Part shown: positions 25,821-49,806 of the stretch, piece by piece | Position numbering within the stretch: position 1 is the stretch's first letter | Layout of the letters: every line of letters starts with the position of its first letter | Assembly (NCBI GenBank): GCA_001051155.2 | Contig: JYIP02000008.1 | Coordinates: 1,302,001-1,366,000 of the forward strand | Direction: 5' to 3' | Source: Chrysoporthe austroafricana | Taxonomy: Eukaryota; Ascomycota; Sordariomycetes; Diaporthales; Cryphonectriaceae | Length of the DNA stretch: 64,000 nucleotides | Translations under genes and position numbers: made by a program | Notes under the pieces: generated by a model | Database searches by the model: none | What the model saw: only the letters and a program-made list of their open reading frames with translations | What the model was told of the DNA's origin: nothing

Positions 25821-27080
25821 CTATACGGCCGGCCCCGCCCCTATCTTGACCCGGTACGATCTGAATGGGCCTTTCCTGGCGTCCACGTTATTGTATTGCC
25901 TCGCGGGGGCCAAACTCAGCTGGTTGGTACAGAAGTACAGATAACCATCCAGGATTGCCGCGCTGTCCGCATGCTGGATAAGTCCACTCCTTATCAACGT
26001 TTTGACATAATAGTTCCTCGCTGCTACCGGCCCCGAACCACCAGGAGGCACCCCATTCACCTCCTCCGTGACTCTCGCCTGCTGCGTCTGAACATAAAAG
26101 ATGGCATTCTGCTCGCTCGCCAACATGAAGAGCCGGCCCTGGTCGTCCGCCGTGAAGCCAGCCTGTTCGGAGCCGAGCTCGCCCGGGTCCTGGACGGCCG
26201 CCAGGACTTGGGCGTCGGTGGCGCCAAAGTCCTGCATGATGGCTTGGGAGACGTAGTAGAAGCGCCGAGACGCCAGGTTTCCCCAATAAACGTTACCGCT
26301 CTGGAGCGCGATCCCGTCCGAGGCGGTGTTGCAGAAACTCTTTGTCGTCCCGTTCCAACAGTAGATTGGCTGTCCGTCGTAGATGCCTACGAATGTCGGA
26401 TCTGCCATCACCACAGACGTGCCGTTCAGCCGCTTCGCTACACCCCCTGTCGCAAGATCCATGGCGACCACGCCGCCACCCGGAGACTCATCGGTCAGGA
26501 AGGCAAATCCTCCGGCGCCGGCCGTATTGTTGATACGCACATCGTTCAGGTTGGTCTTGTTGAACAGGATGTCGTCCGGGAACAGATAAGTCCTGATCAA
26601 GGACCGTGTCGTCACGTTGAATGACATGATCTTCGCTCCACCCGAGACGGCCTGGCCATTGGACCCATACGCAATACCGCTGTCGACGACCCACATCTGC
26701 CCTATCGAATCCAGCACGACATTTTGGACATTGATAAAGCAGGTCGAGGCGTTTTGTCCGGGCTCGCACCGCTGGATCTCGGCAGATGGCCAGGGCTCTT
26801 CATCTTCGAAGCTGGTACAAATGACCACGTTGTTGGTTGAGTTTTCAGCGTTGCGGGGATAAGTCAAATACACGTTCAGGTCATGGTCCACGGCCAGGCC
26901 AGTCGGTGCATCGGTGCTCTGATGGACAGCCTCGAGTGGATCGCCGATGATCGTAAAGTCTTGTGGACAGACGCCGTTTGTGGAGTTTGAGCTAGAGAGC
27001 GCTGGGCTTGGACAGGTGTTTGGAAAGGTGGCTCCTGCGAAAGCAGCGAGACTGGCAAGACCGGCGAGCGGGGACCACAT
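25821..27080 (-). CDS. Secreted major royal jelly protein/yellow-like protein
   Basis: Single exon, 419 residues, starting with a signal peptide (PLAGLASLAAFAGATF). The chain matches the MRJP/yellow beta-propeller family (PF03022): PTGLAVDHDLNVYLTYPRN, NVVLDSIGQMWVVDSG, DIL-F-N-K-TNLNDVRINN, GGFAFLTDESPGGGVVAMDL, then SDGIALQSGNVYWGNLASRR-FYYVS, and finally LIQHADSAAILDGYLYFCTN. These blocks cover all expected blades. Many N-glycosylation sequons (NST, NGT, NKT, NNT) are present, consistent with secretion. In insects the family includes pigment-related yellow proteins; fungal members are sporadic and uncharacterised, so no enzymatic role should be assumed. A 295-codon open frame on the other strand is its mirror image and not a gene. 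Confidence 0.88.
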   Translation of the reverse strand: MWSPLAGLASLAAFAGATFPNTCPSPALSSSNSTNGVCPQDFTIIGDPLEAVHQSTDAPTGLAVDHDLNVYLTYPRNAENSTNNVVICTSFEDEEPWPSAEIQRCEPGQNASTCFINVQNVVLDSIGQMWVVDSGIAYGSNGQAVSGGAKIMSFNVTTRSLIRTYLFPDDILFNKTNLNDVRINNTAGAGGFAFLTDESPGGGVVAMDLATGGVAKRLNGTSVVMADPTFVGIYDGQPIYCWNGTTKSFCNTASDGIALQSGNVYWGNLASRRFYYVSQAIMQDFGATDAQVLAAVQDPGELGSEQAGFTADDQGRLFMLASEQNAIFYVQTQQARVTEEVNGVPPGGSGPVAARNYYVKTLIRSGLIQHADSAAILDGYLYFCTNQLSLAPARQYNNVDARKGPFRSYRVKIGAGPAV

Positions 27081-32969: not shown

Positions 32970-33110
32970 ACCGGTATGGTGCAGTGGTGAGTTTCTCTGG
33001 TGCTTTCTCCCATCCTGCTTCTGAACTAACATGCAGTACCAGGTTTAGCATATTGGATTTTCAGGACCTGAAAACTTCCAAAGACCGGAGTTCGAACCTC
33101 CGTGCCGGTG
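32970..33110 (+). tRNA. tRNA with anticodon TTC (Glu-type), interrupted in the D-loop and at 37/38
   Basis: The 7-bp acceptor stem pairs ACCGGTA (32970-32976) with TGCCGGT (33103-33109), discriminator G. The T-arm is CGGAG-TTCGAAC-CTCCG (33086-33102). The anticodon stem is TTGGA (33053-33057) with TCCAA (33077-33081). The loop reads TTTTCA, then a 12-nt insert GGACCTGAAAAC (33064-33075), then T; the insert pairs with the anticodon as in canonical nuclear tRNA introns after position 37. The D-stem GTGC (32979-32982) pairs with GCAT (33048-33051) only if 56 nt (32987-33042) are removed; then the D-loop is AGTGGTTTA. Pol III A-box (TGGTGCAGTGG) and B-box (GTTCGAACC) are intact, and a T5 run follows. 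Mature length would be 73 nt. The body does not look like common fungal tRNA-Glu, so identity is tentative and a decaying copy is possible. Confidence 0.7.
32987..33042 (+). other. Spliceosomal-type intron-like insert in the tRNA D-loop
   Basis: The 56-nt insert starts GTGAGT, contains ACTAAC at 33025-33030 and ends ACCAG (a nearer CAG is at 33034-33036). These are the splice signals of protein-coding introns in this window. Its removal restores D-stem pairing and a nine-base D-loop with the GG pair. Confidence 0.6.
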
Positions 33111-34548
33111 GTTTCTTTTTGAGCCGTGCCACTCTCCAGAAGCAACTTTGTGTCACCCGGGCATCCATAGCAGCACACGAACCACAGTTCATTTCCAGCC
33201 AGCTGTGGGTGACCACCCCTTTTGAGAATTTCAAAAAAATTCTTGGCAGGAAGTGAGTATGTCAACATATTCAATAATACAGCGGATCTTGACAGACGTT
33301 TTCACACTACCTTTGCCTCGTCAAGACGCTTGAGCAAATTCGGACCCATGTCCGCGCTCTTTTGCATGGTCGTATTAACCGTTGGATCCACTATTTCGTC
33401 GTTAAAAAGGTTGATAGAGAGCCTCTCGTACGTAGGTTATGATTTGGCGGTTTGTGCTGAAGGCCAGGCCTAGAAACCTCCGCTTCAGGGAAGAAAATAA
33501 AGCAGGCCCAAAGATAGGTCCATGGTCAAGCATTTATCTTTTGCAAGATCCTCAAAAGAGAACGATCTCCACTATGTCAAGCCATACAATAAGATTTGCT
33601 TCAGTCTTTTTAGCGTCTACATGGTAAACCGATACGTCTCTCTAAGTGCCCAGCCCCGTTAACTGGTCAAATGATTAAGGATTCATGACTCACTCGTACC
33701 TGATAGGCCTCTTATTATCAGGTTCAGCGGCCCCTAACCTCCTCTTTTAGTGCCTCCAAGCTTAAGCTGTTCGTTGCTCCTCTCCAAGTTCAGCGACTGA
33801 TTTAACGTGAGGAATGATTGCTGTTGTCAAAATCGGCCACCAACAAACAAGTTCGAGAGAATACGCTGACTCCTTGGTCCAACGCCTAGTTAATAGGATT
33901 ATCAGCATCCTTTTTATCTTCAAATTGCAAGCTCAAATGTTTGTTTCGAGTAATGGGCCAGATCAAAGATTGTGTGGGAAGAGCAGCCGAGGGACCTGGA
34001 ACATCAATCGTGAATTAAAATAGCTACCAGCTCGCAACACGCTCATTGAAGATTTGTATATTGCAGGACTTTCACTTGAAGATCATCTGTCCACTGGAGT
34101 TCGAGGTGGCAAAGTGAGCCGCTGATTGCCCAGTCTGCACCCCGAGTCCAGAGGTGTGCGTGACATGCGGGCGAGGAGCGGCCGCAATGCCGCAGACGGA
34201 TATAGCCTGCGTCGAGTAACTCCCCAAAGTCAAGAGCAGGCAGAGAGACAGTATGTGGTGGAACCTTCATTAGCACGCAAATGGCACACCTACAGAGCTG
34301 AAGATGCGGCCCTATGGTGTAAGTCCGTACTTATCGCCGACGCTTGCGGTCACTTGAGAAGTTAGAGCACAGAGGTCGCCGTTTTTTAACAAAATCTATC
34401 CATCCCCTATTTCAACGTCGGTGTGAATAGTTGGCTGCGATTATGTCCAAAGCATTTCTCTAAAATATTGTGTCGGACGTGCATTGTTGAAACCATCATT
34501 TACACCACCATCGGCCACTTGCCAGACCTCACAACCCACACCTGCAAT
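33111..34548. other. 1.4 kb intergenic
   Basis: Downstream of the tRNA and upstream of the SDR gene. Frames under 85 codons, none with a motif. Confidence 0.5.
33116..33120 (+). terminator. Pol III T-run terminator of the tRNA
   Basis: TTTCTTTTT begins two bases after the discriminator base, ending in five T, as expected for Pol III termination. Confidence 0.65.
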
Positions 34549-49718: not shown

Positions 49719-49806
49719 TCTCCTGTCGTATAGTGGCTAGTATGTGAGCTTGTCATGCCCAGCGCAAAACTCGCTCGAGACCCGGGTTCAATTCCCGGCG
49801 GGAGAG
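49719..49806 (+). tRNA. tRNA-Asp (GTC) with a 16-nt intron
   Basis: Acceptor TCTCCTG (49719-49725) pairs with CGGGAGA (49799-49805), discriminator G. The D-arm is GTAT-AGTGGCTA-GTAT. The anticodon stem is TGAGC with GCTCG, the loop TT-GTC-A then a 16-nt intron (49756-49771) and C. The T-arm is CCGGG-TTCAATT-CCCGG. The arms resemble tRNA-Asp, and the intron is in the canonical 37/38 place. A T7 run follows. Confidence 0.93.

Follow-up and report, generated by a model that had tools for sequence, protein, structure and literature searches.

The window, a stretch of 64 kb of C. austroafricana DNA taken as a whole, contains on its + strand a tRNA gene (32970-33110) with the anticodon TTC (Glu), two intervening segments and a mature form of 73 nt. 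The original prediction held that all four stems require the removal of both segments, and this proved correct: with 32987-33042 and 33064-33075 left out, 21 of 21 standard pairs are present (acceptor 7, D 4, anticodon 5 and T 5), and ARAGORN identified the doubly spliced 73-nt product as tRNA-Glu(ttc).

The 5' strand of the acceptor stem, ACCGGTA (32970-32976), pairs at 7 of 7 positions with TGCCGGT (33103-33109), which is followed by the discriminator G at 33110. Between these strands, our cloverleaf scan placed the D-stem (GTGC at 32979-32982 with GCAT at 33048-33051), a D-loop split into AGTG (32983-32986) and GTTTA (33043-33047), the anticodon stem (TTGGA at 33053-33057 with TCCAA at 33077-33081), the anticodon itself (33060-33062, also given by ARAGORN) and the T-arm CGGAG TTCGAAC CTCCG (33086-33102). 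The A-box, TGGTGCAGTGG at 32977-32987, is, as had been anticipated, uninterrupted; this holds in the gene itself because the first base of the D-loop insert is G. The B-box, GTTCGAACC, lies inside the T-arm. The segment GGACCTGAAAAC (33064-33075) is a canonical 12-nt intron after position 37, and its predicted ability to pair with the anticodon is seen in CTGAAAA, the complement of TTTTCAG in the anticodon loop; the D-loop segment lies elsewhere than 37/38. TTTTT (33116-33120), 5 nt past the gene end, resembles a Pol III terminator. Among the 64 other tRNA rows parsed by our scanner (one locus counted twice, L078 repeating L050), 60 have TTTT within 40 nt downstream, at a median of 3 nt, and in 50 an intervening segment follows position 37. 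The locus has the parts of a functional nuclear tRNA gene, that is, A-box, B-box, T-run and a complete cloverleaf after both removals. When the Glu gene alone was folded, the lowest-energy structure of both the spliced and the mature sequence differed from the cloverleaf.

The D-loop insert and its detection

The 56-nt D-loop segment (32987-33042), with boundaries fixed by tRNA anatomy, has the form of a spliceosomal intron in its GT...AG register. It opens with the 5' splice site GTGAGT (32987-32992), a hexamer identical to that of the U6 intron in this genome, contains the branch-site motif ACTAAC (33025-33030) and ends with the 3' splice site CAG (33040-33042), 13 nt from the branch A, leaving the D-loop AGTGGTTTA. 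Four cut registers yield an identical product, one of them GT...AG, and the limits that the tRNA sets on the insert agree with GT...AG ends, with the branch motif and with a branch distance of 13 nt. The length, the GTGAGT start and the CAG end agree with the earlier description, but ACTAAC, said to lie twelve bases before the final CAG, is 9 nt from it; the 12 nt run to the end of the insert. Passages of PMC5832005 give GTRWGT, RCTRAY, YAG and a branch distance of 6-36 nt for fungal introns, and the insert fits every one of these U2-type features (GTGAGT, ACTAAC at 13 nt and CAG). In this it resembles fungal U3 snoRNA introns, from which it differs in host RNA and position. A nearer CAG (33034-33036), 7 nt from the branch A and inside the published range, counts against the spliceosomal reading; its use would yield a 15-nt D-loop. 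The insert can also form an 8-pair hairpin over its own 3' splice site, with a fold no stronger than those of shuffled sequences (z -0.04). Searches of the genome (48 Mb, 22 contigs) for further copies of the locus, the spliced gene or the insert, over limited candidates, matched only the locus itself.

To scan both strands of the window, we used our own scanner, which permits D-loop inserts and anticodon introns and was run at ≤1 mismatch; it matched the Glu gene and an ordinary tRNA-Asp at 49719 only. When the window was resampled 2,500 times under a first-order Markov model (160 Mb, both strands), there were 105 hits at ≤1 mismatch, including 4 with no mismatch (weight ≤46). All 105 had weights of 49 or less and none reached the 52 of the Glu gene, which speaks against the possibility, raised with the original prediction, that the stems arise by chance. 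In natural DNA, 6 of 127,870 overlapping 65-mers of the window (both strands) passed a GTRAGT...CTRAY...YAG test in D-loop register, 4 of them being the Glu site in shifted registers and 2 a single other site. Intron-like stretches of 40-120 nt with such signals numbered 20 in the window compared to 7 in the reversed sequence.

Rfam and ARAGORN did not recover the gene in its unspliced form. An Rfam scan of the window gave no match at gathering score, the Glu locus being merely a 16.5-bit partial match from 33039. ARAGORN missed the gene at default settings and, with anticodon introns allowed, called SeC(tca) at 32970-33110 with a fold differing from the Glu cloverleaf, a candidate we rejected. 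The tRNAscan-SE 2.0 paper (PMC8450103) states that a eukaryotic tRNA gene has one intron at most.

Related tRNA genes and U6 in the same genome

Other Glu genes retrieved from the genome were Glu(TTC) at L087 and L088 and Glu(CTC) at L089, L090, L190, L221 and L245, with D-loops of 7 or 8 nt. An intronless-Glu pattern gave 41 hits (control, 39), with no Glu tRNA among the 20 of 41 that were fetched, and a Glu tRNA sequence used as query had no match, which tells only that this query differs from the Glu genes present here; Glu genes were reached through another pattern (102 hits, 100 of them listed; control, 131). A sequence search for relatives returned two bacterial chance matches, which were not used, and none in viral contigs. 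Of the two Glu(TTC) genes, both insert-free, L088 is intact and L087 shows 2 broken pairs; intact members of the Glu(TTC) set may thus be few. The spliced D-loop of the Glu gene is 9 nt long, a length also found in 8 of the 64 other rows. By structural position, its identity was 42/62 to L087, 41/62 to L088 and L089 and 40/62 to Gln(CTG), Lys(TTT) and Ala(TGC) genes, and its pair 1-72 is A-U rather than U-A. The anticodon says Glu, and the tRNA body is divergent and not clearly Glu because the Gln, Lys and Ala genes score close to the Glu genes.

As for marks of a pseudogene, broken stems are absent (0 of 21 pairs) and other genes with the same anticodon are present. Compared to L088, 12 of the 21 pairs are the same, 1 is changed on one side, 8 are compensatory and 0 are broken. 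In a five-sequence alignment (A1), 98.1% of cells fit the cloverleaf pairing, and 11 pairs differed on both sides, versus 4.7 in shuffles that do not keep relatedness. The compensatory differences show selection on the cloverleaf during divergence, not its persistence after the insert was gained.

The U6 gene of this genome, the sole match over the cut-off (L107), reads ...AACGATAC / GTGAGT...CTCACTAACAGTTGTCACAG / AGAGAAGATTAGC... and carries an mRNA-type intron of 64 nt (L107:1473-1536) directly ahead of AGAGAAG. The intron has GTGAGT and ACTAAC, with the branch A 12 nt from its end, and a T-run lies 3' of the gene. U6 is described as a Pol III transcript in passages of PMC10484740, and because Pol III-made U6 carries such an intron, the spliceosome here presumably processes a Pol III product with GTGAGT and ACTAAC signals. 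TTTT is absent inside the U6 intron and inside the D-loop inserts of the Glu gene and of the Leu and Arg genes described below. The U6 intron also contains a B-box-like GTGTTCGAGTCTC, and two partial U6 copies under the family cut-off lie at about 1501 of L108 and L109, the latter copy without the 5' part.

D-loop inserts with GT...AG ends recur in further tRNA genes. Three patterns, TRGYNNARNGGTRAGT (15 hits; control, 17), ACTAACN{42,72}GTTCGANNC (12 hits; control, 40) and GTGAGTN{88,118}GTTCGANNC (27 hits; control, 36), each recovered the Glu gene and no other case among their hits. The pattern GTAAGTN{88,118}GTTCGANNC gave 19 hits (control, 54), 18 of which were fetched and scanned, yielding L171; the nineteenth, L065, is a partial tRNA match. 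For GGTTCGANTCC there were 130 places (control, 93), 100 of them listed; 19 near known tRNAs were dropped and 80 of the remaining 81 were fetched. At ≤3 mismatches, these 80 places gave 11 loci, including five ordinary tRNAs (L190, L195, L217, L221 and L245), L225, L200 and four weak loci at chance level (L220, L226, L228 and L249; weights 32-47). Two more weak loci, L140 and L147, came from the scan of hits to the earlier patterns. The three cases (Glu, Leu and Arg) are a lower bound because tRNAs with other B-boxes lay outside the patterns.

The tRNA-Leu(CAG) gene (L171:49-209, equal to contig C9 109,028-109,188, + strand) has a 59-nt GTAAGT...CTAAC...TAG insert in its D-loop and a 37/38 intron of 20 nt, and is immediately followed by a T-run. 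The D-loop reads AGCGG / GTAAGT...TGTCTAACAAAGTCTCTAG / TCTA. GTAAGT and TAG agree with the fungal consensus, and TCTAAC, with a branch distance of 12 nt, is off consensus in its first base. Because the pattern that led to L171 demands GTAAGT, independent evidence comes only from the branch motif, the register and the 3' boundary of the insert. A Leu(TAG) gene (L049) has the D-loop AGTGGTCTA and a D-stem mismatch, 13-22, in common with L171.

The tRNA-Arg(CCT) gene (L225:82-237, equal to contig C16 442,970-443,125, + strand) came from the search that made no demand on splice signals and has a 77-nt GT...AG D-loop insert with weaker signals. All 21 of its 21 pairs are present, a single register is possible for the insert (GTCAGT...AAAAG) and the D-loop of the product, AATGGTA, is the same as in the Arg genes L034 and L036. 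GTCAGT departs from GTRWGT and AAG from YAG, and the GCTAAC branch is 30 nt away with AGs nearer. Removal of the Leu or the Arg insert restores a normal D-loop. With anticodon introns of up to 60 nt allowed, ARAGORN called Leu(cag) and Arg(cct) only after insert removal; neither ARAGORN nor Rfam gave a tRNA in the unspliced L171 and L225 loci. Similarity among the three inserts, or between them and the U6 intron, did not go past 7-nt matches.

Two further kinds of locus were seen. L200 (- strand) is a decayed Leu(AAG)-like tRNA with 2 broken acceptor pairs; its D-loop also carries an insert, one that has no GT close to the start. L204, L220, L235 and L246 have a T-arm and a 3' acceptor end with no convincing 5' half in the fetched stretch, and may represent long introns or fragments; by eye, L220, L235 and L246 are Ala- or Gly-like, with no such call for L204.

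Processing and origin of the D-loop inserts

We consider it probable that the Glu gene is a Pol III tRNA gene with a U2-type spliceosomal intron in its D-loop, and that TSEN takes out its 37/38 intron. The nuclear gene would be transcribed by Pol III with the use of its A-box, B-box and T-run; the spliceosome would recognise GTGAGT, ACTAAC and CAG in the pre-tRNA and join AGTG to GTTTA, giving the 9-nt D-loop. The cloverleaf could then form and TSEN would remove the 12-nt intron after position 37, with the ends trimmed as for other tRNAs. The same route would apply to the tRNA-Leu(CAG) gene and perhaps to tRNA-Arg(CCT), and U6 of C. austroafricana would likewise be processed by the spliceosome. 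The sequence itself shows the tRNA anatomy, the intron signals and the further cases; that Pol III transcribes the gene, that the spliceosome acts before TSEN and that the product works is what we infer. The original prediction had left the spliceosome open beside TSEN and a dead copy, and the spliceosome gained most from the present analysis, through the fit to the fungal consensus, the U6 intron and the Leu and Arg inserts. Fungal U6 snRNA introns offer the parallel of a spliceosomal intron within a Pol III small-RNA gene, with the difference that U6 is a spliceosomal RNA whereas the host here is a tRNA that also bears a TSEN-type intron. U3 and U6 were, in 2017, the only small structured RNAs known as often interrupted by introns, according to passages of PMC5832005, which also cites the intron in U6 of Schizosaccharomyces pombe.

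Several observations weigh against the spliceosomal reading. The first exon is 17 nt and the pre-tRNA is short and presumably uncapped, and the splicing of such an RNA is not established. The Arg insert has weak signals, the 9-nt D-loop compares with 7-8 nt in seven Glu genes and the lowest-energy fold is not the cloverleaf. The 8-pair hairpin, though no stronger than in shuffles, could cover the 3' splice site. Moreover, L087 and L088 are insert-free, so the gene is not the sole Glu(TTC).

These two insert-free genes are also one reason why a dead copy keeps some weight. On this account, which we regard as rather unlikely, an intron-like insert came into a working tRNA gene, for example through reverse splicing, and the transcript is never spliced; its stems would be kept because the insertion is recent. 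Excerpts of PMC4090602 state that eukaryotic D- or T-arm insertions mostly occur in a single gene out of many synonymous ones and are supposed pseudogene marks, and L200 shows that the genome does hold a decayed tRNA with a D-loop insert. However, L200 differs from the Glu gene in its broken acceptor pairs and in the lack of a GT near the insert start, whereas the Glu gene keeps 21 of 21 pairs, 8 of them compensatory and 0 broken relative to L088, against 2 broken pairs in L087, which lacks the insert. A dead copy is further disfavored by the splice grammar of the insert and the U6 precedent, by the Leu(CAG) and Arg(CCT) genes with the same arrangement and intact stems, and by the failure to find similar sequence elsewhere among the limited candidates of the genome search. 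Removal of the D-loop segment by TSEN, as in Cyanidioschyzon or nucleomorph tRNAs, seems improbable. Excerpts of PMC4090602 report D-arm introns from the red alga and from nucleomorphs, and these resemble the present case in having an extra D-arm segment beside an anticodon-loop intron. The Guillardia nucleomorph insertions in the same excerpts are 3-24 nt long, compared to 56-77 nt with GT...AG here, and the bulge-helix-bulge motifs that seem critical for the splicing endonuclease in Cyanidioschyzon are weak at best in our genes. One of the four equivalent registers permits a central helix of 4 pairs (TGAG/TTTA) next to the D-stem, but 2 of the 4 pairs are G.U, strict spacing gives none of the 3 outer pairs and 1 of the 3 inner ones, and the central pairs number 3 of 4 in Leu L171 and 1 of 4 in Arg L225. 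Under a strict bulge-helix-bulge test, the best register of the D-loop segment had 4 pairs and the gene's own 37/38 intron, an ordinary one, scored 0/4, so the test does not discriminate and a poor score says little; parts of PMC4090602 describe the eukaryotic enzyme as using a ruler mechanism without clear local motifs. The fold of the insert is not unusual, and cleavage by TSEN would account neither for GTGAGT, ACTAAC and CAG nor for the resemblance to the U6 intron.

The direct repeat TGCAGT (32980-32985 and 33032-33037) encloses the greater part of the insert without lining up with the splice sites, and could be read as the 6-nt target duplication of a short mobile insert unrelated to splicing. 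We find this very improbable: taking out the element and one repeat gives a 13-nt D-loop, compared to 7-8 nt in the other Glu genes, the genome search over limited candidates matched neither the locus nor the insert a second time, and the intron signals and the Leu and Arg cases would be unaccounted for. A chance origin of stems and signals can be almost wholly discounted, given that 160 Mb of shuffled sequence held no equally strong hit and that the only other scanner match in the window is a normal tRNA-Asp.

Implications and window context

At somewhat better than even odds, the spliceosomal reading extends to a broader one, in which several tRNA genes (Glu-TTC-like, Leu-CAG and perhaps Arg-CCT) acquired spliceosomal introns in the D-loop, just behind the A-box, with some tRNAs needing the spliceosome and then TSEN, and with common finders missing them. 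The A-box and B-box survive insertion into the D-loop, which may be why introns can enter there. If true, these would be the first tRNA genes with mRNA-type introns that we could find; the part of the open-licence literature that we searched yielded no report of such introns in tRNA genes. Two different splicing machines would be needed for one tRNA, tRNA supply would be tied to pre-mRNA splicing and the spliceosome would be able to act on a very short pre-tRNA. The inserts would also document intron gain cleanly, in genes whose structure is known, and the tRNA inventories of such genomes would be incomplete because ARAGORN and Rfam give no tRNA at the unspliced Leu and Arg loci.

Proteins encoded in the window include those with DUF3716, SPT5, SET and acyltransferase matches, which, like the style of the introns, suggest a filamentous fungus. 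On the - strand, 25821-27080 of the window codes for a protein in which a Pfam search matched the major royal jelly protein domain (MRJP, E = 1.6e-20), here in a fungus.
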